NCBI RefSeq assembly: GCF_029688865.1
Contig: NZ_JARUKV010000019.1
Coordinates: 1-64,000 of the forward strand
Length of the DNA: 64,000 nt
Source of the DNA: Natronococcus sp. A-GB7
GTDB taxonomy: Archaea; Halobacteriota; Halobacteria; Halobacteriales; Natrialbaceae
Direction of reading: 5' to 3'
The translations under genes were made by a program, and so were the position numbers. The notes under the pieces were generated by a model, which was not told where the DNA came from, searched no databases, and worked only from the letters and a program-made list of their open reading frames with translations. The stretch's first letter is position 1. Each line of letters begins with the position of its first letter. Below are positions 6,440-27,572 of this stretch, in pieces.

Positions 6440-6763
6440 TCACCCGTTGAAATCGAATCGCGGGCCGCCGTAGGTCGGCGGATCGGGCTCGAGTTCGACC
6501 CCGTGTTCGTACCGAACGAAGTTGAGGTAGAACGGCCGACCACAACCCTCGACCGGCTCGCCCTCGAGGTCGGTGACGGAGCCGTCATCGCCGCAGACGA
6601 AGGCGATCCCGTCGGCGTCCTCGCGGTCGGGGTCGTCGGGGTCGGCGTACTCCCAGCCCGGCTGTGCGAGTTTGGTGACCGAACGGTCGGCGAGATCCGG
6701 CGGACGCTCGAGGCTGTGGACCGCATCGCAGTGGGGACAGGTGTAGCGGACGGTGACGGTCAT
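6440..6763 (-). CDS. small zinc-finger-like conserved protein
   Basis: 107 residues. Cys9-x-x-Cys12 (CPHC) near the N-terminus, together with Cys57 and Cys74, could bind one zinc. The rest is acidic with a Trp/Tyr-rich end (PFYLNFVRYEHG). The pattern is that of a haloarchaeal hypothetical family without known function; a nucleic-acid or protein-binding zinc ribbon is possible but not shown. ATG at 6763 follows a short intergenic gap and is divergent from the DUF5783-like gene. Confidence 0.65.
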   Translation of the reverse strand: MTVTVRYTCPHCDAVHSLERPPDLADRSVTKLAQPGWEYADPDDPDREDADGIAFVCGDDGSVTDLEGEPVEGCGRPFYLNFVRYEHGVELEPDPPTYGGPRFDFNG

Positions 6764-6873
6764 CGACGGCTCTAGGGGGTTCGGAGACGTAAGCCTGCGG
6801 GACGAACTCGCGGGGACGCGGTTCGAGGCGTCCGTCCCGAACCGTTTACCGGCTCGCTGCTCGACGAAGGAGT

Positions 6874-7191
6874 ATGACCGAGTTCGATCCCGAGAAGTTC
6901 GACGAAAAGTACGTCCACTACTTCGAGGAGCTCGAGACGGCGTACTCGAACGCGTACAACCAGCTCCACGGCCGGTACGACTCCGAGATCCTCCGCGCGA
7001 TCGATCGCAAGGTCCTGAGCGAGAGCGAGCCCGTCTACCTCGGCGAGGAGGAGTTTCGGATCGACCTCCCCGAGGAGCGTGTCGAGACGGTTCGGGCCGC
7101 AGTCGGCGACCCGGAGCAGTTCGACGCCGTCCTCGAGGAGTTCCGAGAGCGGATCGCTGACGAACTGGTTCGGATCTTCGAGTTCGACTGA
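6874..7191 (+). CDS. DUF5783-like conserved haloarchaeal protein
   Basis: 105 residues, MTEFDPEKFDEKYVHYFEEL..., rich in Glu/Asp and aromatic residues and predicted helical, with a short strand segment EEFRIDLPEE (about 59-68). The start and middle (RYDSEILRAIDRKVL) match the pattern I know as haloarchaeal DUF5783. Function unknown; no metal or nucleotide motif. It is followed after 77 bp by the eIF2B-like gene on the same strand, which has its own AT-poor spacer, so co-transcription is possible but not evident. Confidence 0.7.
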   Translation: MTEFDPEKFDEKYVHYFEELETAYSNAYNQLHGRYDSEILRAIDRKVLSESEPVYLGEEEFRIDLPEERVETVRAAVGDPEQFDAVLEEFRERIADELVRIFEFD

Positions 7192-7268
7192 CGAGCGGCT
7201 ACTCCGTCCCGCCGTCGGCCCGCGAGACACCCGGAACACCTTTTGCGGTTACGGGAATCCGTAGAGGT

Positions 7269-8120
7269 ATGATCGACGAGACGGTCGAGGAGATCAAGGA
7301 CCTGCAGACGCACAGCTCCTCGGTAGTTGCGGTAAACGCGACGCGAGCGCTCGAGGAACTGATCGAGCGAGAGTTCGCCACGCTCGAGGAGTACGAGCGA
7401 GCCCTCGAGCAGAACGGATCGGTGCTACGTCGGGCGAACCCCTCTCACGCCTCGCTGCAAAACGCCGTCCGCGAGGTCGTCGGCGACGTTACCGAGGCCG
7501 ATGTCGACACCGTCGACGAAGCGAAGCGACTCACCCAGAAGCGGATCGACGCGGTCGTCTCCAGGGTCGAGGCAGGGAAGGATCTGGCCGCCGAGAACGC
7601 CGTTTCCCACCTCGAGGACGGCGCGACGCTGCTGACTCACGACTACTCCTCGACGGTGCTCGAGGCCCTGGAACGGGCCGTCGAGGCGGGCAAGGAGTTC
7701 GACGTCTACATCACCGAGGCTCGGCCGCGCTACATCGGCCGGAAGACCGCCAGATCGCTGGCCGATCTCGAGGGCGTCGACGCGACGCTGATCACCGACA
7801 GCGCCCACGGGATCTACCTCGAGGACTGCGACCGGGTGGTCGTCGGGATGGACTGCATCGTCGACGAGACGCTGTACAACCGGGTCGGGACCTTCCCCAT
7901 CGCCGCGACGGCGGCCCAGCTCGAGGTTCCGGTCACCGTCGTCGGCTCGGCCTCGAAGATCGTCGAGGAGGGGTTCGTCTTCGAGAACGAGTACCGACCG
8001 GGAAGCGAGGTCATGTCCGAGCCGGCGGAAGGGTTCGCGGTCGAAAACCCCTCCTACGACGCGACGCCGATCGAGTTGCTCGAGAGCGTAATCACCGACG
8101 AGGGGCGCCAGGAGCTGTAG
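7269..8120 (+). CDS. eIF2B-alpha/beta/delta-like protein, possible ribose-1,5-bisphosphate isomerase
   Basis: 283 residues of the eIF2B/MtnA/R15P-isomerase superfamily. An N-terminal helical domain (1-110) precedes a Rossmann-like C-terminal domain with LLTHDYSSTV (about 117-126), TEARPRYIGRKTA (148-160) and the MDCIVDETLYNRVGT segment (about 198-212). Archaeal relatives either carry the initiation-factor label or are ribose-1,5-bisphosphate isomerases, which convert R15P to ribulose 1,5-bisphosphate in AMP/nucleoside breakdown. The ARPR and DxxxD-like segments suit the isomerase side. Haloarchaea use such an isomerase in a pentose-bisphosphate route. Which activity this copy has cannot be settled from the sequence. 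Confidence 0.8.
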   Translation: MIDETVEEIKDLQTHSSSVVAVNATRALEELIEREFATLEEYERALEQNGSVLRRANPSHASLQNAVREVVGDVTEADVDTVDEAKRLTQKRIDAVVSRVEAGKDLAAENAVSHLEDGATLLTHDYSSTVLEALERAVEAGKEFDVYITEARPRYIGRKTARSLADLEGVDATLITDSAHGIYLEDCDRVVVGMDCIVDETLYNRVGTFPIAATAAQLEVPVTVVGSASKIVEEGFVFENEYRPGSEVMSEPAEGFAVENPSYDATPIELLESVITDEGRQEL

Positions 8121-8153
8121 CGGGGCTCGAGCCGGTTCGGCCCGCTGCCGGTC

Positions 8154-8849
8154 TCAGTCGCGCTCGCCGAACGTCCGCGGTGACCCCTCCGTCGGGCTCG
8201 CCCAGTCGACCGCGTTCCGGAGGACCCGCTGGATCTCTGCGTTCTCGTAGATCGGATACGTCTCGTGGCCCGGACGGAAGTAGAAGATCCGACCGTTCCC
8301 GCGCCGGTAACAGCAGCCGCTGCGGAACACCTCACCGCCCTCGAACCAGCTCGTGAAGACGAGTCGGTCGGGTTCGGGGACGTCGAACGGTTCGCCGTAC
8401 ATCTCCGTCGTCGGGAGCTCGATCGACTCCTCGAGCCCGTCGGCGATGCGGTGGCCGGGGTCGACGACCCACAGTCGCTCCCGACCGCCGTCCTCGCGCC
8501 ACTGGAGGTTACAGGTCGTCCCCATGAGTCGTTTGAAGATCTTCGAGAAGTGGCCGGAGTGAAGGACGATCAGCCCCATTCCCTCGAGCACCCGTTCCTG
8601 AACGCGGTCGACGATCTCGTCGTCGACCTCGTCGTGAGCGATGTGGCCCCACCAGAACAGGACGTCGGTCGACTCGAGGACGTCCTCGGTGAGCCCGTGA
8701 TCGGGCTCGTCGAGGGTGGCCGTCCGCACCTCGTGGTCGTCCTCGAGGACGCCCGCGAGTGCCTCGTGGATCCCGTCAGGGTAGACCGCGGCGGCGTCCT
8801 CGTCCTCCCGTTCGTGTCGGAACTCGTTCCAGATCGTGACTGCGACCAT
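8154..8849 (-). CDS. ThuA-domain protein (trehalose utilisation-like)
   Basis: 231 residues with the ThuA fold, which is related to class I glutamine amidotransferases: [10 protein letters not shown] at the start, [18 protein letters not shown] (about 58-75), [14 protein letters not shown] (92-105) and [15 protein letters not shown] near 197-211. ThuA proteins accompany Gfo/Idh/MocA dehydrogenases in sugar use, for example 3-ketotrehalose metabolism in rhizobia. The divergently transcribed neighbour is such a dehydrogenase, which supports a shared sugar pathway here. The real substrate is unknown. ATG start at 8849. Confidence 0.88.
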
Positions 8850-14439: not shown

Positions 14440-15138
14440 CTACACCGCGAGGTACTCCGTCACCGCGTCTCGCGACTCGAGGCGGTCGCCCTCGAGTTCG
14501 TCGACGATCGTCCCCTTGTCGATGGCGTAGCAGCGTTCGGCGAGGTTCTGGACGACGTGGAGGTTCTGCTCGACGAAGAGGATCGTCGTTCCGAGCTCCT
14601 CGTTGACCCGTTGGAGGTCCCGCGTGACGTCCTGGACGATCGAAGGCTGGACGCCCTCGGACGGTTCGTCGAGCAGGAGGAGTTCGGGGTTACCGACGAG
14701 CGCACGGCCGATGGCGAGCAGCTGTCGCTGGCCGCCGCTCATCGTCCCGGCCTCCTGATCGCGGCGCTCCTCGAGGATCGGGAAGTAGTCGTAGACGGCC
14801 TCGTACTGCAGTTGGTCGTCGCCCTCGTTGATCGTCTCGCCGATCCGCAGGTTCTCCTCGACGGTCAACTCGGGAAAGACGTCCCGGCCCTGCGGGATGT
14901 AGCCCATCCCGCTGCGAGCCCGGACGTCGGCCGGCTCGTCGGTGACGTCCGCTCCGTCGAACCGAATCCGTCCGTCGTCGACCTCGAGCAAGCCCATGAC
15001 GGCCTTGACGAGCGTCGTCTTGCCGACGCCGTTTTTCCCCATGATGCCGACGATCTCCCCCTCGTCGACGTCGACGTCGACGCCACGGAGAATCGGTGTC
15101 TTGCCGTACGACGCGTGCAGGTTCGTGAGTTCGAGCAT
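14440..15138 (-). CDS. urtE: urea/amide ABC transporter ATPase UrtE
   Basis: 232 residues, LivF-type ATPase. The Walker A GKNGVGKTT is near 35-43, the Q-loop in YIPQGRDVFP near 87-96, signature MSGGQRQ near 133-139, Walker B LLLLDEPSEGVQPS near 153-166 and the switch His in FVEQNLHV. It is last in the five-gene urtABCDE order, and its ATG overlaps the urtD stop (TGATG), so translation is coupled. The SEGVQPSI sequence after Walker B is typical of UrtE rather than LivF. It powers urea or short-chain amide uptake at the cell membrane. Confidence 0.9.
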   Translation of the reverse strand: MLELTNLHASYGKTPILRGVDVDVDEGEIVGIMGKNGVGKTTLVKAVMGLLEVDDGRIRFDGADVTDEPADVRARSGMGYIPQGRDVFPELTVEENLRIGETINEGDDQLQYEAVYDYFPILEERRDQEAGTMSGGQRQLLAIGRALVGNPELLLLDEPSEGVQPSIVQDVTRDLQRVNEELGTTILFVEQNLHVVQNLAERCYAIDKGTIVDELEGDRLESRDAVTEYLAV

Positions 15139-15917
15139 CAGTGATCCTCCCCCAGGTAGATCCGCTTCACTTCGGGATCGGTCCTGATCTCCTCGATCGA
15201 GCCCTCCCTGAAGATCGAGCCCCCATCGAGGACCGTGACGCGATCCGCGATCGTTTCGACGAAGTCGATGTCGTGTTCGATGACGATCAGGGCGACGCCG
15301 TCGTCGTCGGCGATCTCCCGGAGGAGTTCGGCGATGTCCGCGGTTTCCTCGACCGAGAGCCCGGCGACGGGCTCGTCGAGCAGCATGAGGTTCGGTTCCA
15401 TCGCCATCGCCATCCCGATCTCGAGGCGCTGTTGCTGGCCGTGAGAGAGCGCTCCGGCGACGGTCTCCCACTGGTCGAGCAGGTCGAAGCGCCCGAGGAT
15501 CTCGCGCGTACGGTCCTCGAAGGCGTCGGGCTCGACGATCTGCTGGAGCGGAATCCGCAGGTTTTGTGCCACGGTCAACCCCTCGTAGACGCTGGGAACC
15601 TGGAACTTCATACTGATTCCGCGGTCGACCCGCTCGTGGGACGGCAGCCCCGTGATATCGGTGCCGTCGTAGTATATCTCCCCGGCTGTGGGCTCGAGTT
15701 GGCCCGTGAGCAGGTTGAGGAACGTGCTCTTGCCGGCCCCGTTGGGGCCGATGAGACAGCGCAGCTCTCCTTGCTCGAGGGCGAAGTCGACGTCGTCGAT
15801 CGCGGTGAGCCCGCCGAACTCCTTGCGCAGGCCGCGGGTTTGCAGGATCCGCGAGGAGCCGTCGCCGGTCTCGTCGACCGCCGGCGTGGTCTTGACCGTG
15901 GGGTCGCTCGTCGCCAT
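15138..15917 (-). CDS. urtD: urea/amide ABC transporter ATPase UrtD
   Basis: 259 residues, LivG-type ATPase with an acidic N-terminal tail (about 25 residues). Then come LRKEFGGLTAIDDV, Walker A GPNGAGKST (about 54-62), LSHGQQQRLEIGMAMA (signature, about 156-171), Walker B LMLLDEPVAGLS and the EHD switch in VIEHDIDFVE. LSHGQQQ is the variant signature usual in UrtD. The ATG start at 15917 overlaps the urtC stop. Much longer open frames upstream belong to shadow reading of urtC. It forms the ATPase pair with UrtE. Confidence 0.9.
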   Translation of the reverse strand: MATSDPTVKTTPAVDETGDGSSRILQTRGLRKEFGGLTAIDDVDFALEQGELRCLIGPNGAGKSTFLNLLTGQLEPTAGEIYYDGTDITGLPSHERVDRGISMKFQVPSVYEGLTVAQNLRIPLQQIVEPDAFEDRTREILGRFDLLDQWETVAGALSHGQQQRLEIGMAMAMEPNLMLLDEPVAGLSVEETADIAELLREIADDDGVALIVIEHDIDFVETIADRVTVLDGGSIFREGSIEEIRTDPEVKRIYLGEDH

Positions 15918-17032
15918 CAGTCGCCCACCTCCTCGGTGGCCGCAGGCGGTTCCTGTGGCGCCGGTGACGGATCGGCGTCCTCGCGGTACTCGACGATGTA
16001 CTCGTGAAGCCGCGGAGCGACCCCCTCCGGCATCACGAGGACGACGAACATCAGCAGCGAGCCGATCAACACGAGCGCCCACTCGCTGCCCGAGAGCGCG
16101 AGCCGGTAGTCGACGAACTGGATCGCGAGGGCGGCCCCGACGGTGCCGATCAGCGAGGTCCGGCCGCCGACGCTGGCCCAGACGACCGGCAGCGCCGCGG
16201 CGGTGATCCCGAAGACGCTCGGATCGACGTAGTTGTTCTGCGTGGTAAAGAGCACGCCGCCGAGGCCGGCGATCGCTCCGCCGATCGTGAAGACGACGAG
16301 CTTGATGAACGTCGTGTCGTAGCCGAACATCGCCGTCCGGTCCTCGTCCTCGCGGGTCGCGACCATCGCGTAGCCGAACTGACTGTTGACGAGCGCGCGC
16401 AGCCCGAGGTAGGTCGCCACGAGCGCACCCAGCGTGACGTAGTAGTGACCGAGGAGCCCGATCTCGACCCCGGTCGAGCCGATCCCGACGGCGAGATCGG
16501 GGACGCCGCTCATCCCGTTGAACCCGCCCAACCGAGCGTCGCCGATCGCCCACTCGCCGCCCGCCGTCTGGCCCATGAACGTGTACAGGACCAGTGCGAC
16601 GACCAGCGTGAGGATCGTCACGTAGACGTCACGGACCCCGCCGTAGAACATGAAGTAGCCAAGCGCCGCGGCGAAGGCCGTCGAGACGGCGATCGCCGCG
16701 AGCAGCGCGAGCGTCAGCCCGGTCAACGTCGCGGCGTTGATCGCGACGATCCCGAACGCGTAGCCGGCGACGCCGAAGAAGGCGACCTGCCCGAAGCTGA
16801 GGATGCCGCAGTAGCCCCAGATGAAGGCGAGACTCATCCCCAGCAGGGCGTAGGCGAGAAACACCGCGCCGACCTCCGCGGCGTAGAGCCCGAAGAGAAC
16901 GGGCAGCGCCGCGAGGGCCACGACGGCGACCGCGAAGCCGAGCCAGAACGCCGGTGAGTTCCCCATCGTGTTCGGCCCCTCGAACGGCCGCCGGACGGCG
17001 GCGAGCGGCCCGTCGCTCGAGCCGACGCTCAC
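15917..17032 (-). CDS. urtC: urea/amide ABC transporter permease UrtC
   Basis: 371 residues with about ten membrane segments, LivM-type. AFIWGYCGILSFGQVAFFG (about 68-86) is the conserved early motif, ATREDEDRTAMFGYDTTFIKL (about 222-242) the cytoplasmic coupling loop that contacts the ATPase, and the tail (about 350-371) is Pro/Glu-rich. The GTG at 17032 overlaps the urtB stop (GTGA), which favours it; an in-frame ATG at 16966 (MGNSPAFWLG) is the alternative and would remove 22 residues. It is one half of the Urt membrane channel. Confidence 0.9.
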   Translation of the reverse strand: MSVGSSDGPLAAVRRPFEGPNTMGNSPAFWLGFAVAVVALAALPVLFGLYAAEVGAVFLAYALLGMSLAFIWGYCGILSFGQVAFFGVAGYAFGIVAINAATLTGLTLALLAAIAVSTAFAAALGYFMFYGGVRDVYVTILTLVVALVLYTFMGQTAGGEWAIGDARLGGFNGMSGVPDLAVGIGSTGVEIGLLGHYYVTLGALVATYLGLRALVNSQFGYAMVATREDEDRTAMFGYDTTFIKLVVFTIGGAIAGLGGVLFTTQNNYVDPSVFGITAAALPVVWASVGGRTSLIGTVGAALAIQFVDYRLALSGSEWALVLIGSLLMFVVLVMPEGVAPRLHEYIVEYREDADPSPAPQEPPAATEEVGD

Positions 17033-17910
17033 TGGCTCTCACCCCGGTTCTCGCGCCAGTCGGCGAGCAGTCCCGTGATCCCGTCGGGCATCAGTCGGAT
17101 GGCGATGATCGCGGCGATCAGCATCGCGACCTGTCCCATGAAGGTGCCGGCGACGTTCGTCACGGCGGCGTTGACCGTCCCGAGGAGGCCGCTGGCGAGG
17201 ACGGTTCCGACGAGGACCGAGGCGCCGCCGACGACGACGGCGACGAACGCCTCGATCAGGAAGCCGGTGCCGTACTCGGGCGTGACCGTCAGCACGGGCG
17301 CGTACAGCGCCCCCGCGAGGCCCGCCAATCCGGAGCCGATAGCGAACGTCGACATGTACATTCGGTCGGTGTCGACGCCCATGCTGCGGGCGGTCGACTC
17401 GTCCTGCATCGTCGCGCGGGCGCGGACCCCGAAGTCGGTCCACATGAACAGCGCGTACAGCCCGCCGAGCACCCCGACCGCGACGACCGCGAGGACGAGG
17501 TAGTAGACGGGGCCGTCGACGACCGGGAGCTGCCCGAACGGGATCCCGATCCCCGGAGCGGTGTTGCCGAAGGCGATCCGCGTGAGCTGGATCATCACGA
17601 GGCTGATCCCCCAGGTGACGACCATCGAGTCGAGCAGGCGTCCGTAGAGGTGGCGGATGATCAGCCGCTCGAGGACGAGCCCGTAGACCGCCGTCAGCAC
17701 GACGCCGGAGAGCATCGCCAGCGGGAGCGGGAGCCCCGCAGCGAAGGTGAACGTCGTCGCGTACGCGCCGACGAGGATGAACTCCCCGTGGGCGAGGTTG
17801 ATGATCCCCATCATGCCGAAGATCACCGCCAGCCCGACCGTCGCCAGCACGATGAACGCGAAGATCTCGACGAACTCGAAGCCGAAGTTCAGCAGTCCTG
17901 TCCCCGTCAT
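17029..17910 (-). CDS. urtB: urea/amide ABC transporter permease UrtB
   Basis: 293 residues, LivH-type permease with about eight membrane segments. GMMGIINLAHGEFILVGAY (about 32-50) is the family motif, and RATMQDESTARSMGVDTDRMY (about 163-183) is the coupling helix segment with the conserved acidic/Gly pattern. The ATG lies 1 bp after the urtA stop, so it belongs to the same transcript. With UrtC it forms the channel for urea or amides. Confidence 0.9.
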   Translation of the reverse strand: MTGTGLLNFGFEFVEIFAFIVLATVGLAVIFGMMGIINLAHGEFILVGAYATTFTFAAGLPLPLAMLSGVVLTAVYGLVLERLIIRHLYGRLLDSMVVTWGISLVMIQLTRIAFGNTAPGIGIPFGQLPVVDGPVYYLVLAVVAVGVLGGLYALFMWTDFGVRARATMQDESTARSMGVDTDRMYMSTFAIGSGLAGLAGALYAPVLTVTPEYGTGFLIEAFVAVVVGGASVLVGTVLASGLLGTVNAAVTNVAGTFMGQVAMLIAAIIAIRLMPDGITGLLADWRENRGESQ

Positions 17911-17911
17911 C

Positions 17912-19186
17912 TCAGGCCCCCTCCGAGAGCGCGTCGGGTTCGTACTGGGTCCGTTCCGTCTCGCTCGTCAGATCGCACCCGACCTCCTCGAGGAAGACCG
18001 GCTCGATCGTCCGCGGTTCGTCGAAGGTGATCTCGTGGTTCTCGTCAGCGTGTGCGATACGCATGTTGTGGTTCATATGGTGGGTGGTCGGATCGAGCGA
18101 GACGTCGCCCTCCGGAGCCTCGACCTCGAGTCCGGACTCGAGGGCCTCGATCACGGCCGCCTGGTCGAACGTCCCAGCGCGTTCAACGGCCTCCTTGTAG
18201 AGGTAGACCGAGAAGTAGTTGTTCTGGGCTTCCTGGTTGATGTACTCCGCGTCGTCCCAGCGCTCGTAGTAGCGCTCGACGAACGCCTCGTTGCGGTCGG
18301 TCGGCAGCTCCTCCATGTAGTTGACGCCGGCGTAGACGTCCTCCAGGGCGGGTGGATCGATCCGCAGGTGTTCGCGCTCCTGGGCCATGTTCGTCGAGGT
18401 GCCGATCGGGACGTCGGTGAGCCCGCTGGCCAGGCGCTGCTCGTAGAACGCCGAGTGGTCCTGTCCCACGAGCATCGACATCACGAAGTCCGGCTCCGCC
18501 GACTGGATGTTGTTGATCGTCGACCCGAACTGGGACTCGTCTAACGGGATGTACTCCTCGCCGACGACCTCGGCGCCGTGTTCCTCGGCGATGAGCTTCA
18601 CCCACTCTCCCGAGAGCTGGCCGAAGTTGTAGTCCGCGGCGACCGTGTAGATCTCGTTGCCGTACTCCTCGATCATGTGCGGAACGACGGCGCCGAGCTG
18701 CTGGCGGGCCGTCGCCCCCAGCGGGAAGACGGTCTTGTCGCAGACGCCGCCCTCGTACTGTGTCGTGTAGAAGTACAGCTGGTCGTGTTCGTTGATCAGC
18801 GGCCGGATCGCCTCCCGGGTCGCGCTCGAGTACCCTGCCCACAACACGTCGGCGTCCTCCTGATAGATCGCGTGGCGGGCGAGATCCTGGTAGCGCATGT
18901 TGTCGGACTGCGGGTCGGGAGCGAAGACCTCGAGCTCCTCGCCGAGGATCCCCCCATCGCGATTGATCTCCTCGATCGCGAGCTTCGTCGTCCGGTACTT
19001 CGCCGTCCCCGTCAGCGCGAACGTCCCGGACCGGTCCTCGAGGACGGCGGCCGTCGGGTTCGAGCCGCCGTCCTGCATCCCCAGGATGGCGCCCTCGCCG
19101 ACGCAGCCGGCGGTGGCCGCCAGCGCGCCGGCCGAGCCGGCCGCGAGCACCGAACGGCGGGTGAGCGACCGTTCGGTCACGAACAC
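17912..19186 (-). CDS. urtA: urea/amide-binding lipoprotein UrtA
   Basis: 424 residues. The N-terminus carries a twin-arginine signal (TRRSVLAAG) and a lipobox ending ATAGC (Cys28), so the mature protein is a lipid-anchored binding protein. The type I periplasmic-binding fold of the LivK/UrtA/AmiC group is seen in GTFALTGTAKYRTTKLAIEEIN, VLWAGYSSATREAIRPL and FPLGATARQQLGAVVPHM. The start is one of two GTG codons, 19186 or 19180; an ATG is absent. The 19186 form lies just downstream of an AT-rich box near 19211-19221. It is the first gene of urtABCDE and divergent from the metal-binding lipoprotein and urease genes. Confidence 0.9.
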   Translation of the reverse strand: MFVTERSLTRRSVLAAGSAGALAATAGCVGEGAILGMQDGGSNPTAAVLEDRSGTFALTGTAKYRTTKLAIEEINRDGGILGEELEVFAPDPQSDNMRYQDLARHAIYQEDADVLWAGYSSATREAIRPLINEHDQLYFYTTQYEGGVCDKTVFPLGATARQQLGAVVPHMIEEYGNEIYTVAADYNFGQLSGEWVKLIAEEHGAEVVGEEYIPLDESQFGSTINNIQSAEPDFVMSMLVGQDHSAFYEQRLASGLTDVPIGTSTNMAQEREHLRIDPPALEDVYAGVNYMEELPTDRNEAFVERYYERWDDAEYINQEAQNNYFSVYLYKEAVERAGTFDQAAVIEALESGLEVEAPEGDVSLDPTTHHMNHNMRIAHADENHEITFDEPRTIEPVFLEEVGCDLTSETERTQYEPDALSEGA

Positions 19187-19658: not shown

Positions 19659-21038
19659 ATGAATCACGGACGACGCGACGTGTTGGGTGCGGCGGGCGGG
19701 TTCTGTGTGGCCGCCCTCGCCGGCTGTCTGGACGAACCGGCGGGTGACGAGGACGCGCCGGACGACGATCTGTACGCGTCGTTCTTTACGCTCGCGGAGT
19801 TCACCGCCGCGGTTGCCGGCGACGGAACGACGGTCGAGAACGCCGTCCCCGACGGCGAACACGGCCACGGCTGGGAGCCGCCGTCGACGCTCGTGCCCGA
19901 AATCTCCGAGGCCGACGCCTTCGTCTACCTCGACGCCGAAGGGTTCCAGCACTGGGTCGACGACGCCGTCCCCGAACTCGAGGACGAGTCCGACCTCGCG
20001 CTGATCGACGCGCTCGCGGGGATCGACCTCCTCGAGTACGACGACGATCACGACCACGGCCACGGTCACGGCGAGGACGACCGCGTCGAGGAGCTCGCCG
20101 TCGGCGAACTCATCCTGCTCGAGGGCAACGAGGCGGTCGCGTACGCACACGGCGATCACTGGCACGACGACCCGCTGTCGATCCCGCTCGAGGACTCACG
20201 TTCGGTGACCGTCGTCGCCGAGACCGACGACGGTGAGGAACTCGAGTTCGGCGAGACGTACGCGCTGGCCGTTCGGACGGCCGACGGCCACGGCGACGAC
20301 GCCCTCGTGTACGAGGTCGAGGGCGACGCGATCGCGTTCGAGGGGTTCGAGGACGAGTTCACCGAACTCGTCGTCCAGGTGCTCGAGGACGACGACGTCG
20401 TCTGGGAGGCGCCCCCGCTCGAGACCGAGGTCGGCGAACACGAGCACGGACATGGGGATCACGACCACGACAACGGACACAACCACAGTCACGGCGAGTA
20501 TGACGCGAAGTTCTTCTCCGATCCCGCGCTCGCCCAGCGGGGAGTAGAGAACGTCCGCGACGGGCTGATCGCGATCGATCCGGACAACGAGGCGACCTAC
20601 GAGGAGAACGCCGCGGGCTACCTCGAGGAGCTGACGGCCCTCCACGAGGAGTACCAGGAGCGCCTTTCCGACCGGACACACGACGCCGTCGTGCTGGCCG
20701 GCCACGACTCCTTCCAGTACCTCGGCGAGCGCTACGGGTTCGAGATCCACACTCCAGTGGGACTCTCGCCCGACGCCGCACCCTCGAGCGAGGAGATCGC
20801 CGACACCGTCGCCTTCCTCGAGGAGCGGGGGATCGAGTACGTGCTCTGGGACTACTTCGACGGCGACCGCCTCGCCGAGACGATCGCGGAGGAGGCCGAC
20901 ACCGTCGAGGACACGCTGATGGTCTCACCCGCCGAGAGCACGATCGACGACTGGCAGGAAGCCGGGTACGGCGACTACCTGGGACAGATGCGCGAGATCA
21001 ACCTCCCCGCGTTCGAGACGGCTCTCGGCGCGGAGTGA
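19659..21038 (+). CDS. ZnuA-like metal-binding lipoprotein with inserted His-rich domain
   Basis: 459 residues. A Tat-type signal (GRRDVLGAAG) with lipobox ALAGC (Cys23) anchors it outside the cell. Cluster A-1 metal-binding lobes flank a long insert: the N-lobe with GHGWEP at 69-74, and the C-lobe with GHDSFQYLGERYGFEIHTPVG (about 348-368). The insert, about residues 130-280, begins and ends in His-rich runs (DHDHGHGHG, then HEHGHGDHDH...) and holds a beta-like domain with HGDHWHDD at 164-171. The usual DPHxWLDP ligand motif is AKFFSDP here, so one normal His ligand is missing. No permease or ATPase is adjacent. Position between urt and ure genes suggests nickel or zinc capture for urease; this is inference. 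Confidence 0.8.
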   Translation: MNHGRRDVLGAAGGFCVAALAGCLDEPAGDEDAPDDDLYASFFTLAEFTAAVAGDGTTVENAVPDGEHGHGWEPPSTLVPEISEADAFVYLDAEGFQHWVDDAVPELEDESDLALIDALAGIDLLEYDDDHDHGHGHGEDDRVEELAVGELILLEGNEAVAYAHGDHWHDDPLSIPLEDSRSVTVVAETDDGEELEFGETYALAVRTADGHGDDALVYEVEGDAIAFEGFEDEFTELVVQVLEDDDVVWEAPPLETEVGEHEHGHGDHDHDNGHNHSHGEYDAKFFSDPALAQRGVENVRDGLIAIDPDNEATYEENAAGYLEELTALHEEYQERLSDRTHDAVVLAGHDSFQYLGERYGFEIHTPVGLSPDAAPSSEEIADTVAFLEERGIEYVLWDYFDGDRLAETIAEEADTVEDTLMVSPAESTIDDWQEAGYGDYLGQMREINLPAFETALGAE

Positions 21039-21238: not shown

Positions 21239-21652
21239 ATGAGCGGGATCGTCCCGGGCGAGTTGTTGCCGTCCGACGAGCCGGTTCGAATCAACGAAGG
21301 TCGGGAGACGACGGCCGTCACGGTCGAGAACACCGGCGATCGGCCGGTACAGGTCGGTTCGCACTTCCACTTCTTCGAAATAAATCCCGGTCTTCGTTTC
21401 GACCGGGAGCGGGCGTACGGGTTCCGACTGAACGTGCCAGCGGGAACGGCTGTCCGGTTCGAGCCGGGTCAGGAACGCGAGGTCGAGCTGGTCGCGATCG
21501 GCGGCGACCGGATCGTCCGCGGGATGAGCGGACTGGTCGAGGGACCGCTGGACGACGAAGACGTTCGGGAGCGCGCGCTCGAGCGGGCTCGTGAACGGGG
21601 GTTCCTCGGGGTCGACGCCGAGGAGTCGGCGGCCGGAGGGAACGGGCGATGA
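21239..21652 (+). CDS. ureB: urease beta subunit
   Basis: 137 residues. [22 protein letters not shown], then [26 protein letters not shown], are the standard UreB core; the acidic/Arg-rich C-terminal extension (about 105-137) is longer than in most bacteria. The ATG at 21239 gives the usual N-terminus; the open frame upstream (to 21110) lies in an AT-rich promoter stretch and is not family-like. It is a structural subunit of the nickel enzyme that hydrolyses urea to ammonia and carbamate. The stop overlaps the ureC start (ATGA). Confidence 0.95.
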
Positions 21653-23355
21653 GCCGCGAGCTCTCCCGACGCGAGTACACGGACCTGTTCGGCGCGACCG
21701 AGGGCGATCGGGTCAGGCTCGGCGATACGAACCTGCTGGCGAGGATCGAGACCGACTACGGCACGCCCGGCGAGGAGGCCGTCTTCGGCGGCGGGAAGAC
21801 GATGCGCGACGGGATGGGGATGCAGTCGGGGACGACTCAGGCCGAGGGCGCGCTGGACTGGGCCTTTACCAACGTCGTGATCATCGATCCGGTGCTGGGC
21901 GTCTGTAAGGGCGACATCGGGGTTCGGAACGGGAAAATCGTCGGTGTCGGCAAGGCCGGCAACCCCGACGCGATGGACGGCGTCGACATGGTGATCGGTC
22001 CGAGCACCGACACGATCCCCGCCGACGGCCTGATCGCGACACCCGGGGCGCTCGACATCCACGTCCACTTCAACAGTCCGCAGCTGGTCGACCACGCGCT
22101 CGGTTCGGGGGTTACGACGATGCTCGGAGGCGGGTTCGGCGGCGGGGCGACGACCTGCACGCCGGGCCCGGAGAACGTCAAACGGTTCCTCCAGGCCGCC
22201 GAGGACTGGCCCGTCAACGTCGGCTTCTACGGCAAGGGCAACAGCAGTCGTCCCGAGGGGCTGCGCGAACAGGTCGAGGCCGGCGCCTGCGGCCTCAAGC
22301 TCCACGAGGACTGGGGGTCGACCCCCGCGGCGATCGACACCTGTCTCGACGTCGCCGACGAGGAAGACGTCCAGGTCTGTATCCACACCGACACCCTGAA
22401 CGAGTCGGGGTTCGTCGAGGACACCTTCGCGGCCATCGACGGGCGGGCGATCCACACCTTCCACATCGAGGGTGCCGGCGGCGGCCACGCGCCCGACGTC
22501 CTCGAGCTGATCGGCCACGAACACATGCTCCCCTCGTCGACGAACCCGTCGATGCCCTACACCGAGAACACGTTCGACGAGCACCTGGACATGGTGATGG
22601 TCTGCCACCACCTCAACCCCGACGTCCCCGAGGACGTCGCCTTCGCCGAGTCGCGCATCCGCGCGGAGACGCTTGGCGCCGAGGACGTCCTCCACGATAC
22701 GGGCGCGATCAGCATGATGACCTCCGACTCCCAGGCGATGGGCCGGATGGCGGAGGTCATCAGTCGGACGTGGCAGACCGCCCACAAGATGAAGGCCCAG
22801 CGGGGGCCGCTCGAGGCCGACGAGGGCACCGACGCGGACAACGCCCGAATCGAGCGCTACGTCGCCAAGTACACGATCAACCCGGCGATCACGGCTGGGA
22901 TCGACGACTACGTCGGCTCGCTCGAGCCGGGCAAGCTCGCCGACGTCGCGCTGTGGGATCCCGCCTTCTTCGGCGTGAAGCCGAAGGCCGTGATCAAGGG
23001 GGGGTTCCCGGTCTGGTCCCAGATGGGCGAGGCCAACGGCTCGCTGATGACCTGCGAGCCGATCATCGGGCGGGAACGGGCCGGCGCGCAGGGCCGAGCG
23101 AAACACGGTCTCTCGGTCTCGTTCGTCAGCGACGCCGCCTACGAGAACGGGGTCGGCGACGCCTACGATCTGAAGACACCCGTCCGTCCCGTCAGCGGCA
23201 CGCGCTCCGTCAGAAAGTCGGATATGCTGCACAACGACCACTGTCCCGACGACATCGAGATCGACGCCCAGACGTTCGAAGTCGAGGTGGACGGCGAACA
23301 CGTAACCTGCGAGCCGGCCGACGAGATCCCGCTCGCACAGCGGTACCTACTCTAG
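21649..23355 (+). CDS. ureC: urease alpha (catalytic) subunit
   Basis: 568 residues, full length. All catalytic residues are present: His138 and His140 (DIHVHF), the carbamylated Lys217 (GLKLHEDWG), His246 and His272 (Ni ligands), Cys319-His320 of the mobile flap (VCHHLN) and Asp360. Residue numbers from the Lys onward match the Klebsiella enzyme. The Gly-rich segment [10 protein letters not shown] (about 160-169) is intact. Reaction: urea + H2O to ammonia + carbamate at a di-nickel centre in the cytoplasm. It is coupled to ureB by a 4-bp overlap. A large antisense frame over this gene is a GC artefact. Confidence 0.98.
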
Positions 23356-23356
23356 T

Positions 23357-23452
23357 ATGTACGAACGCGACACGGAGACGACGACGATCGGAACCGAACC
23401 GACCCCGAGAGCGAACGCGGCGGACGACGAACTCGAGGTGAGTCGCGAGTGA
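23357..23452 (+). CDS. 31-codon ORF between ureC and ureA
   Basis: ATG two bases after the ureC stop, [10 protein letters not shown]...ELEVSRE, acidic with a Thr run; the TGA overlaps the GTG start of ureA (GTGA). It could be a coupling ORF that carries ribosomes from ureC to ureA, a short regulatory peptide, or simply the remnant of an N-terminal extension. It has no recognisable motif, so coding status rests only on the tight spacing. Confidence 0.35.
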
Positions 23453-23895
23453 ACCTCTCGCCGAAGGAGATGGAACGGTTGACGGTCTTCATGGCCGCCG
23501 AACTCGCCCGACGGCGCAAGGATCGGGGCGTGAAACTCAACCATCCCGAGACGGTCGCGTACATCTCCGACTGGTGCTGCGAGGCCGCCCGCGAGGGGAA
23601 GTCCGTCTCGCGGATCCGCTCGGAGGCCACGCAGCTGCTCACCCGCGAGGACGTGATGGACGGCGTCCCCGAGCTGGTCGAGATGATCCAGGTCGAACCC
23701 GTCTTTCCCGACGGCACCAAGCTCGTGACCGTTCACGACCCGATCCGAGCCGATAGCCGGGGGCAGCTCGAGACCGTCGATCCCGACCCGGGCGAGGAAC
23801 TCGCGGTCGGAGAGACTGACGAGCCGGGCGAGAGCAAGGGCAGCGAGGCCCACGAGACCGGCGGCGGGCCGGAGCCCACGGAGGGTGACGACTGA
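23449..23895 (+). CDS. ureA: urease gamma subunit with acidic C-terminal tail
   Basis: 148 residues. [34 protein letters not shown], then [18 protein letters not shown] and [18 protein letters not shown], are the standard UreA core (about 1-100). The last 45 residues (from [15 protein letters not shown]) are an acidic, Gly/Glu-rich extension not present in the ~100-residue bacterial subunit. The GTG start is set by the family N-terminus and overlaps the preceding small ORF. Its stop touches the ureG ATG by one base. Structural subunit of urease. Confidence 0.95.
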
Positions 23896-24515
23896 TGGGG
23901 TACCGCGACGTCGCGAAGGTCGGCCTCGGCGGCCCCGTCGGCTCCGGAAAGACCGCGCTGGTCAAACGACTCGTTCCCGAACTCGTCGCGGAGGGGTACG
24001 AGGTCGGCGTCATCGCCAACGACATCATGACCCAGGAGGACGCCGACGTCTTCCGGGAGTCGTTCGCCGATCTGCTCCCCGCGGACCTCGTCGAGGGCGT
24101 CGAAACCGGCGCCTGCCCGCACACGGGGATCCGCGAGGATCCCTCGATGAACCTCGCGGCGATCGACGAGTTCACCGAACGCCACCCCGAGCTCGACGTC
24201 GTCCTCGTCGAGAGCGGCGGCGACAACCTCGCCGCGACGTTCAACCCCGAGCTGGCTGACTACTTCCTGTTCATCATTTCCGTGGCTGAGGGCGAGGACA
24301 TCCCCCGGAAACGGGGCCCTGGAGTCACCCAGGCGGACCTGCTGGTCGTCAACAAGACCGACCTCGCGCCCCACGTCGACGCCGACCTCGAGGTGATCGA
24401 GGCCGACGCGGGCGAGGTTCGCGGCGAGGACCCGTTCGTCTTCACCAACTGCAAGGACGGCACCGGCGTCGACGAGGTGCTCGCGCACGTCGAGCGGGAG
24501 GTGCTGTTCGCGTGA
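23895..24515 (+). CDS. ureG: urease accessory GTPase UreG
   Basis: 206 residues. Walker A GPVGSGKT at 13-20; the nickel-binding CPH at Cys74-His76 ([12 protein letters not shown]); [15 protein letters not shown] (about 101-115); base-recognition NKTD around 152-155. UreG hydrolyses GTP to deliver nickel to apo-urease within a UreD/F/G complex. It overlaps ureA by one base and ureD by four (GTGA), so the accessory genes are translated as a chain with the structural ones. Confidence 0.97.
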
Positions 24516-25510
24516 GCGCGGGCCACACCGCGACCGCGAGGGCGGCCCGGCTGCCGCCCGCCTTCGAGGACTATGCGGGCGAATCCCTCGCCCAGGCGCC
24601 CGCCGCCGGACCGGGCAAGGACGGGCTGCTCGAGGCGACGTTCGCCCGCACGGGTGAGGGACCGACGCGGCTCGTCCGCGACCGGGCCGAGGTTCCCTAC
24701 CACCACACCGGCACCCTCGACACCGATCCCGTGCCCGGGCTGGCGACGCTGGTCGCCCAGGAGCCTACCGGCGGGGTCGCACAGGGCGATCGCCACCGGA
24801 TGCGCCTCGAGGCTCGAGCGAACGCCCGCGCGCACGTAACAACTCAAAGCGCAACGAAGGTTCACAGCATGGACGCCAACTACGCCCACCTCGACGCCTC
24901 GCTGACCGCCGAGGCGGGGAGTTTCCTCGAGTACGTTCCCGGGCCGACGATCGTCAACGAGGACGCGCGCTGTCTGCAGACCGTTTCGGTCGACCTCGCG
25001 GACGGCGCGGTGGCGGTCGTCGCGGACGTGCTCGTCCCGGACGGGTTGAGCGATCACGAGCCGTTTAGCTTCGACCACTACCACGCACGAGTAGAGGCCC
25101 GTCGCGACGGCCGGCTGGTCTGTGCCGACGCGGTCGACCTGCGACCCGAGAAGCGCGACCCGCGGGATCCGGCCAGCGTCGGCGAGTACGGCGTCGTCGG
25201 CTCGCTGTACGTCTTCGCCCCCGACGGTGGCGACGAACGCGCTCGAGGCGCTCGAGGCGACCGCCGCGGCGAGAGCGCGACCGAGACGCTCGTCGAGAGG
25301 ATTCGAGAACGGCTCTCGGCGCTGGAGAGCGAGAGACAGACGGGTCGAGCGGTTCACGCCGGCGTCTCGGCGCTGCCCTGCGAGGCGGGCGCCGTCGTCC
25401 GGCTGCTCGGCCACCGCGAGGCCGACGTCACGGGCGCGCTTCGGGAAGCGTGGGACGAGGCGAGGCGAGAGCTTCTGGGGGTCGGCGCGCCAGCCGACCG
25501 CCGGTACTGA
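24512..25510 (+). CDS. ureD: urease accessory protein UreD
   Basis: 332 residues, UreD/UreH family. The central motifs are [29 protein letters not shown] (about 90-118) and [21 protein letters not shown] (about 137-157), the latter matching the family 'P.P..' metal-path segment, with Cys152 in it. UreD scaffolds the UreF/UreG complex on apo-urease. The GTG start overlaps the ureG stop. Longer than the ~270-residue bacterial protein, with an Arg/Glu-rich C-terminal region (about 230-300). Confidence 0.93.
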
Positions 25511-26139
25511 TGGAGCGAATCGACGGCGTCGTCGGCAACGTCCACGCCGACGACGAGCTCGCGGCGTTGCGGGACGACCATCGGGAGAACGACACGCTCG
25601 AGCGGGTCGTGATCGACGCCGACGACCGTCGGCGGTCGCGGTTCCGGGCGACCACCGACGCGGGAACCGACGTCGGTATCGTCCTCGATCGGCCCGCCGT
25701 CTCGGTCGGGGACGTCCTGCTCGTCGACGACGAGCGCATGGTCCTCGTCGCGTTCGAGCCCCGCGACGCACTGGCGGTCGAGCTGCCGGACCCGACCGCT
25801 GACGTGACGGAGGCCGCGGTCGAACTCGGTCATCGGATCGGCAACCAGCACTGGGATCTGGCGGTCGAGGACGGCGTTGTCTACGTCCCCCTCGAGGCCG
25901 ACCGCCACATCGTCGAGCGGGTGGTCGCGGACGTCGTTCCCGGGACCGAGGTCCAGGAGACGACCGTCGAGGCCGATCTGTTCGTGACGGAGCTCGAGGG
26001 AGGTGTGAACCACGAGCACGACCACACCCACGGCGAGGATTCCGATCACGCTCACGGTACTGATCACGGGCACACCCACGGTGACGACCACGATCACGGC
26101 CACGCGTCCGATCACGCCCACGACCACCATGAGCACTGA
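25510..26139 (+). CDS. ureE: urease nickel metallochaperone UreE, His-rich tail
   Basis: 209 residues. The N-terminal peptide-binding domain includes RPAVSVGDVLL (about 61-71). The metal domain has LGHRIGNQHWDLAVEDGVVYVPLE (about 107-129), with the conserved His at 114, and the long C-terminal tail (about 168-209) holds 17 His in 42 residues. UreE binds nickel and hands it to UreG. MERIDG at 25510 is preferred because it overlaps the ureD stop (TGATG). The tail's 3' end overlaps the ureF start by 11 bp, an unusual packing. Confidence 0.93.
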   Translation: MERIDGVVGNVHADDELAALRDDHRENDTLERVVIDADDRRRSRFRATTDAGTDVGIVLDRPAVSVGDVLLVDDERMVLVAFEPRDALAVELPDPTADVTEAAVELGHRIGNQHWDLAVEDGVVYVPLEADRHIVERVVADVVPGTEVQETTVEADLFVTELEGGVNHEHDHTHGEDSDHAHGTDHGHTHGDDHDHGHASDHAHDHHEH

Positions 26140-26827
26140 CGCCGACGCCTTCCTCTCGGCGCTTCGGCTCTCGGACTCGTTTCTCCCGGTCGGGAGCTAC
26201 ACCGCTTCCTACGGCCTCGAGCAGTACATCAACGAGGACCGCATCGAGGACGGCGAGGACCTCCGGGCGTTGATCGCGGCCTACCTCCGGCGGCTCGTCG
26301 GCCCCTGCGAGACGGTCGCGGTCGCGAACGCCCACGCCGCGAGCGCCGACGGCGATCTCGAGGGACTGCTCGCGGTCGACGAACGGCTCCACGCGGTGAC
26401 GATGCCCGCGGAGTTCCGGGAGAGTTCGACGAAGGCCGGGGCGAAGCTCTGCGAGCTGCTGCTTGCGGAGACGGACGGCGACGAGCACTCGTCGACTCTC
26501 GCCGAGGCGATCGAGGACGGCTCGACTCCCGGTCACTACCCCGTCGTCTTCGGCGTCGTCGCCCAGCATCGCGGCCTCTCGCGACTCGAGGCCTGCCTCG
26601 CTCACGCCTACTCGTTCGTGACGGGACTACTGGGTGCCGCCCAACGTCTCGGGCGGTTCGGCCACACGGAAATCCAGGCCGCACTCGAGGACCTCCAGTC
26701 GGTGATCGAGTCGGTCTGTGAGCGACACCTCGAGGACGATATCGCGGCGATGACCTCGTTCGCGCCGCTGGCCGAGATCATGGGAATGCGCCACGAACGC
26801 GCGGGACGGCGACTGTTTATGAGCTAG
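26129..26827 (+). CDS. ureF: urease accessory protein UreF
   Basis: 232 residues, all-helical UreF. ALRLSDSFLPVGSYTASYGLEQY (about 9-31), LVGPCETVAVANAHAA, FRESSTKAGAKLC and HYPVVFGVVAQHRGL are family motifs, and the C-terminus ends in the ERAGRRLFMS-like segment. UreF links UreD to UreG and gates nickel delivery. ATG at 26129 begins the family N-terminus and lies inside the last codons of ureE. Last gene of the urease operon; a 76-bp gap follows before tenA. Confidence 0.94.
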   Translation: MSTDADAFLSALRLSDSFLPVGSYTASYGLEQYINEDRIEDGEDLRALIAAYLRRLVGPCETVAVANAHAASADGDLEGLLAVDERLHAVTMPAEFRESSTKAGAKLCELLLAETDGDEHSSTLAEAIEDGSTPGHYPVVFGVVAQHRGLSRLEACLAHAYSFVTGLLGAAQRLGRFGHTEIQAALEDLQSVIESVCERHLEDDIAAMTSFAPLAEIMGMRHERAGRRLFMS

Positions 26828-26903: not shown

Positions 26904-27572
26904 ATGACGTTCAGCGATCACCTCCTCGAGATGGGAGCACCGATCTGGGACGGACAGAAGTCACACCCGTTCGTCCGGGAACTCGCGGCCGGAACGCTCG
27001 ACGACGCGGCGTTCGTCCACTGGGTGCGCCAGGACTACCGCTACCTGCTGGATTACGCCCGCGTGTTCGCGATCGCGGGGACGAAGACCCGCGACGAGGA
27101 GACGATGACCCACCTGCTGGGGGTCGCCCACGAGATCCTCGACTTCGAACTGGACCTCCACCGGGAGTTCGCCGCCGACTACGGTATCGCGGTCGAGGAC
27201 CTCGAGCGCGTCGAGAAGGCGCCGACCTGCGTCGCCTACACGAACTTCCTCGTGCGGACGGCCCACGAGGGGAGCCTCGCCGAGATCGCGGCGGCGATCT
27301 ACCCCTGCGGGCAGGGCTACCTCGATATCGCCGAGCACATGGCCGACCTCGCCGACGACGAGCACCGCTACACGCCGTTCATCGAGAAGTATACCGGCGA
27401 GGAGTTCCACGAGGCCGTCGACTGGATGCGGGCGTTTGTCGATCGCTGCGGCGAGCACTATCCCGGCGAGCAGGAGGCGATGGAACGAGCGTTTCTCACG
27501 AGCGCGAAGCTCGAGCACCGGTTCTGGGAGATGGCCTACACGCAGGAGGAGTGGCAGGTGAGCGAGGCGTAG
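26904..27572 (+). CDS. tenA: TenA family thiaminase II / aminopyrimidine aminohydrolase
   Basis: 222 residues, helical TenA fold. SHPFVRELAAGTLDDAAFVHWVRQDYRYL (about 20-48) contains the substrate Asp44, the nucleophile Cys135 lies in AIYPCGQGYL, and Tyr/Glu residues at the C-terminus (KLEHRFWEMAY) fit the family. TenA releases 4-amino-5-hydroxymethyl-pyrimidine, or deaminates aminomethylpyrimidine with release of ammonia, in thiamine salvage. It lies just after ureF on the same strand, but an AT-rich box (AATAATAAC) 15-20 bp before the ATG suggests its own promoter. A functional link to urease is not required. Confidence 0.9.
   Translation: MTFSDHLLEMGAPIWDGQKSHPFVRELAAGTLDDAAFVHWVRQDYRYLLDYARVFAIAGTKTRDEETMTHLLGVAHEILDFELDLHREFAADYGIAVEDLERVEKAPTCVAYTNFLVRTAHEGSLAEIAAAIYPCGQGYLDIAEHMADLADDEHRYTPFIEKYTGEEFHEAVDWMRAFVDRCGEHYPGEQEAMERAFLTSAKLEHRFWEMAYTQEEWQVSEA

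Follow-up and report, generated by a model that had tools for sequence, protein, structure and literature searches.

A ZnuA-family lipoprotein with an altered ligand set, encoded between urea transport and urease genes in Natronococcus

Between the urea transporter and urease genes of Natronococcus sp. A-GB7 lies a gene whose product, judged from its sequence, is a cell-surface metal-capture lipoprotein of the zinc-uptake (ZnuA) family. What distinguishes it in the comparison with its relatives is not the His-rich insert that it carries but its membership of a clade with an altered ligand set, here called K-type, as opposed to the zinc-type paralogues (H-type). We propose, with modest confidence, that it acts as the substrate-binding protein (SBP) of a ZnuABC-like importer re-purposed, most likely to nickel, and thereby metallates the adjacent urease. 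Comparison across genomes gives good support for a nickel/urease role of the K-type variant and suggests that its metal is probably nickel. The window is the whole stretch that was analysed, the first 64,000 nucleotides of contig NZ_JARUKV010000019.1.

The encoded protein and its metal site

The open reading frame at 19659-21038 on the forward strand starts with ATG and comprises 459 codons and a stop. Its features are the following.

19659..21038, + strand: K-type ZnuA-like substrate-binding lipoprotein, 459 aa (Pfam ZnuA, 181 bits)
19659..19730, + strand: twin-arginine lipoprotein signal with R5-R6, lipobox AGC and Cys23 (read directly from the sequence)
19860..19883, + strand: HGHGWEPP, with ligand 1 (H70) and the K-type-specific H68 (conservation counts)
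20049..20069, + strand: first His run, residues 131-137
20076..20432, + strand: inserted Ig-like beta-sandwich domain, residues 140-258, about 119 residues (AlphaFold2 model; stand-alone homologues)
20148..20165, + strand: HGDHWH, residues 164-169, candidate three-His metal site (conservation)
20439..20492, + strand: second His run, residues 261-278
20490..20525, + strand: HGEYDAKFFSDP, residues 278-289, in place of DPHxWxDP, with K284 for the ligand His and the K-type-specific H278 (conservation counts)
20697..20714, + strand: AGHDSF, ligand 3 (H349), invariant in 37/37
20844..20867, + strand: LWDYFDGD, ligand 4 region (D398, 36/37), aligned to FEE of AdcA

The Pfam ZnuA profile (PF01297) matched with 181.4 bits against a curated cut-off of 29, split over two stretches, and together with the reading frame and the signal this confirmed the ZnuA-like Tat lipoprotein with a large His-bearing insert that an earlier sequence-only reading had described. 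Of its 24 histidines, 16 are located within residues 130-281. The NCBIfam models for AztC, ZnuA, AdcA and MntC all scored far under their curated cut-offs (AdcA, for example, 112 versus 700), and a scan of the genome contigs gave only two close named relatives.

In order to compare the ligands we aligned 20 H-type with 17 K-type sequences, the latter including G165 from another haloarchaeal family and leaving out G035, whose gene is present in two fragments. H70 is found in all 37 sequences. Residue 284, the second ligand, is Lys in 17/17 K-type versus His in 20/20 H-type sequences, and residue 286 is Phe in the K-type versus Trp in all 20 of the H-type. Two further histidines appear to be specific for the clade, namely H68 (16/17 versus 1/20) and H278 (17/17 versus 1/20), and K284, F285, F286, H278 and G279 are each present in all 17 K-type sequences. 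The loss of the DPHxWLDP ligand motif noticed earlier is thus real, with AKFFSDP standing in its place and K284 fixed in the clade; the form D[AV]KFF[SA]DP is common to the 17 sequences from nine genera. A match to the motif in G282 was discarded, being a chance occurrence in a peroxiredoxin-like protein. Instead of the four-ligand ZnuA site including the His of DPHxWxDP, only ligands 1, 3 and 4 are retained. From the Pfam match and the lost second ligand His it follows that the protein, though a member of the ZnuA family, cannot be called a canonical zinc SBP, and as one ligand was lost while two possible ligands were gained the site looks rebuilt rather than decayed. A full-length structure model from three sequences was poor (pLDDT 48.8), and the geometry of the altered site is not derivable from it. 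In the phylogenetic tree 16 K-type sequences cluster with a support of 0.90, which falls to 0.37 when the divergent G165 is included.

The inserted domain and its relatives

Both His runs and the HGDHWH motif that had been reported for the insert were found again, the runs at residues 131-137 and 261-278 flanking a domain at 140-258. From five sequences AlphaFold2 predicts an Ig-like beta sandwich for this domain with high confidence (pLDDT 89.3, pTM 0.82), and H164, H167, W168 and H169 are conserved in 17/17 K-type and 18/20 H-type sequences. The insert had been assigned to a position between the two lobes, but alignment to AdcA and YcdH locates it after ligand 1 and before ligand 2, in the His-rich loop native to the family. 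In the ZnuA fold the long lobe-joining helix comes after this loop, and since the insert precedes the helix it lies inside the N-terminal lobe.

The same insert is present in the conventional ZnuA of the same genome (L012 7042-8430), which possesses all four ligands and is encoded in an operon of two small insert-domain lipoproteins, the insert-bearing ZnuA, znuC and znuB. As this zinc-type paralogue encoded with znuBC is H-type, we rejected the idea that the insert marks a nickel role. Stand-alone lipoproteins consisting of the domain are encoded at L012 6100-6849, L014 and L045; a copy is located on contig C8, and in Natrialba swarupiae a single lipoprotein contains the domain twice. One stand-alone lipoprotein (L012 5382-5918), adjoining its His-rich sister gene, is devoid of any motif His (TVDGDGWEV), and a ZnuA of genus g15 (L065 7450-10171) carries another long His-rich insert at the same position without HxxHWH.

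A Pfam/NCBIfam search with three of the stand-alone copies matched no relevant family. The fold search returned Ig-like matches of a generic kind (best Foldseek E 3.1e-3, best Z 9.2). No known metal-binding relative stood out above these, a negative that does not prove absence, and CrdA of Helicobacter appeared with Z 7.0 amid many unrelated folds. The domain, inserted or stand-alone, can be regarded as an uncatalogued candidate metal-binding module. In the zinc SBP AdcA a ZinT-like domain is fused on as a second metal-binding unit, and the window protein resembles it in that a ZnuA core is joined to an additional, here candidate, metal-binding domain. It differs from AdcA in that this extra domain is an Ig-like sandwich within the His loop whose stand-alone copies match no catalogued domain. 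The cyanobacterial zinc exoprotein ZepA also has an Ig-like beta sandwich, with an H-X2-9-H-[FY]-H motif, and is a secreted PEP-CTERM protein reported to be absent from archaea (PMC10957091). With H-X2-H-W-H in the insert domain, the two share a likeness only.

Linkage to urease, permeases and nikR

The gene is flanked by urea transport and urease genes as follows.

14440..19186, - strand: urea ABC transporter genes, divergent (TIGR03669, TIGR03622, TIGR03727), with UrtA at 17912-19186, UrtB at 17029-17910, UrtC at 15917-17032, then ATPases
21239..23355, + strand: ureB and ureC, downstream of the SBP gene on the same strand (PF00699, TIGR01792)
23449..26827, + strand: ureA, ureG, ureD, ureE and ureF (profile matches)

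After the urease genes follows a TenA/THI-4 family gene (26904-27572; PF03070, 164 bits), which is also found in some relatives.

Among the 125 genomes of the family a true urease is encoded in 16 of the 17 with a K-type gene (G035 being counted from its two fragments) versus 33 of the 108 others, with Fisher p = 6.5e-7 and p = 0.0016 in a within-genus permutation, both to be read as guides only since genomes cluster by ancestry. The sole K-type genome of the family showing no urease, G124, is 53% complete. The 33 urease-bearing genomes without the gene show that it is not required. A survey of the homologues, suggested earlier as a check, revealed that the K-type gene adjoins urease in 11 genomes, which belong to five genera; in G041 it is located about 15 kb from urease on the same contig, and in G095 and G096 a different contig carries urease while the K-type locus shares its outer neighbours with the window. 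An arrangement mostly beside znuBC without urease, which would have spoken against a nickel role, is thus what the sister H-type shows, whereas the K-type clade does not. A divergent orphan K-type gene is present in G165 (L117 8805-10202; 99% complete), which has neither urease nor permease genes beside it and no true urease anywhere in the genome. Three genomes possess tandem urease alpha genes (L058 12307-15788; L095 8438-11850; L096 9558-12970), the copies sharing about 90% and 68% identity with the UreC of the window; the second copy of L058 retains HVHFNSAQ, LKIHEDWG and one further 12-residue segment. In G092 about 5 kb, possibly an inserted element, separate the SBP gene from ureB (L051 4130-9238), which are adjacent in sister genomes.

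The earlier statement that the gene has no permease or ATPase partner holds for the window's genus, where no genome encodes a cognate permease, but not for most relatives. Nine of these have an ABC-3 permease directly behind the K-type gene, 68-100% identical to that of G034, and three of the nine show the order K-type gene, permease, ureB. An ATPase is also adjacent in one of them (L056), giving an SBP-ZnuC-ZnuB set beside urease; in G036 SBP, ATPase and permease follow in that order, flanked by ure and urt genes. In G036 a divergently oriented nikR separates ureB from the SBP gene (NikR_C 83.7 bits; 84.5 in the genome search), and a 51% identical homologue occupies the same position in G086 (92.2 bits in the genome search). 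As every genome of the family has NikR_C matches, the presence of nikR means little and its position is the evidence. No NikR-like palindromic operator shared upstream of the K-type genes was found.

These data have to be weighed against an SBP variant for zinc, or for divalent metals in general, whose urease linkage would reflect an inherited gene block and not a common metal. SBP family and permease are indeed zinc-type by profile, the paralogue with the same insert belongs to a znuABC operon, and G165 lacks urease. Nevertheless, we consider this rather unlikely, as the K-type gene tracks urease within genera, including G095 and G096 with urease on another contig, nikR is adjacent to it, and the ligand change is fixed throughout the clade.

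Cobalt, alone or together with nickel, would make the urease link a partial one. In G096 the SBP-permease pair adjoins a gene for a corrinoid adenosyltransferase (BtuR/CobO, 150 bits); at the syntenic position in G095 there are in addition an ABC ATPase and a CobB/CobQ-type amidotransferase. Cobalt is therefore possible. Cobalamin genes of these types are located behind the K-type SBP-permease pair in genus g20 (L053 11686-16942; L055 7014-7772). CbiM is missing from the window's genus, and nickel and cobalt sites are alike. However, cobalamin neighbours occur in one genus only, compared with ure genes in five others, and nikR is found at the K-type locus in two genera, so that we regard cobalt as unlikely.

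In the window's genus, where a dedicated permease is missing, the core evolves with a dN/dS of 0.15-0.25, compared with 0.5-0.9 for the inserted domain; the H-type insert shows 0.17-0.51. By these ratios the orphan gene is maintained by purifying selection despite the absent permease, and the inserted domain evolves fast outside its motif. Since the motif is kept in 17 K-type sequences and the core is constrained, the feature is not due to chance. The orphan might have given up transport and now serve at the surface as a metal buffer or sensor, binding metal but supplying no permease; the missing cognate permease, the additional His runs and the fast-evolving insert would speak for this. With the core under purifying selection, H70, H349 and D398 intact and two related ABC-3 permeases at hand, this is in our view slightly less probable even than the cobalt reading.

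The nickel scavenger serving urease, as suggested in the sequence-only reading, therefore stands in part: urease linkage in five genera, the co-occurrence and nikR in two genera argue for it, while G165 without urease and the cobalamin neighbours in one genus argue against it.

Proposed route of the metal and known systems

According to our favoured model the His runs and the HxxHWH domain would act as collectors through which the membrane-anchored K-type SBP captures nickel, and the metal would be handed from these to the core site, an altered Lys/His cleft built from H68, H70, H278, H349 and D398. The loaded SBP would then deliver to a ZnuBC-type permease, which relatives encode as their own. 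In the window's genus it might dock on ZnuB/ZnuC encoded elsewhere, probably shared; the genus has only two related ABC-3 permeases, both located elsewhere, with 57% and 50% identity. Such docking is proposed by analogy to Streptococcus, where two SBPs share AdcCB (PMC8416893). UreD, UreE, UreF and UreG would finally load urease with the imported nickel. It might even be that haloarchaea possess a nickel-selective ZnuA branch with a rebuilt Lys/His site and an HxxHWH Ig-like collector, one genus of which shares the zinc permease; a single ABC importer would then handle two metals via two SBPs. This broader picture is doubtful.

K-type proteins share with the cluster A-I SBPs ZnuA, AdcA and YcdH the Pfam ZnuA match, the core, the position of the His-rich loop and ligands 1, 3 and 4. 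They differ in the Lys for the ligand-2 His, two extra (nearly) invariant His, the folded domain in the His loop and the urease linkage. With NikABCDE, CbiMNQO/NikMNQO and the NicO importers they have in common the proposed role of providing nickel for a nickel enzyme, and in some genomes a neighbouring NikR, but they belong to unrelated protein families. A nickel importer is expected to be linked in the genome with a nickel enzyme or regulator, and the K-type genes show such links to urease and nikR. In the open-access literature we found neither a previous description of a ZnuA-like nickel SBP next to urease in haloarchaea nor one of haloarchaeal nickel import for urease. What is new here, at the level of sequence comparison, is a ZnuA-family variant together with an uncatalogued domain occurring inserted and alone. 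The ZnuA-type family is known for Zn, Mn and Fe, and if the K-type SBP has changed its metal it would represent a case of specificity change in this family. With H68, H278, K284 and F286 the comparison names candidate specificity residues, which are open to mutation.

The only other candidate nickel mover found in the window's genus is a NicO-like protein, encoded elsewhere in the window's genome (G000:C4:40434-41255), which may carry nickel in or out. We also considered NicO as a mutually exclusive importer of genomes without the K-type gene, but the early weak pattern was lost with a stronger query, which detected NicO-like proteins in 92/125 genomes, K-type included. In G019 and G093 NicO-like genes with an adjoining nikR (L099 near 7175-8534; L100 near 6582-7896) possibly encode a NikR-controlled nickel transporter.
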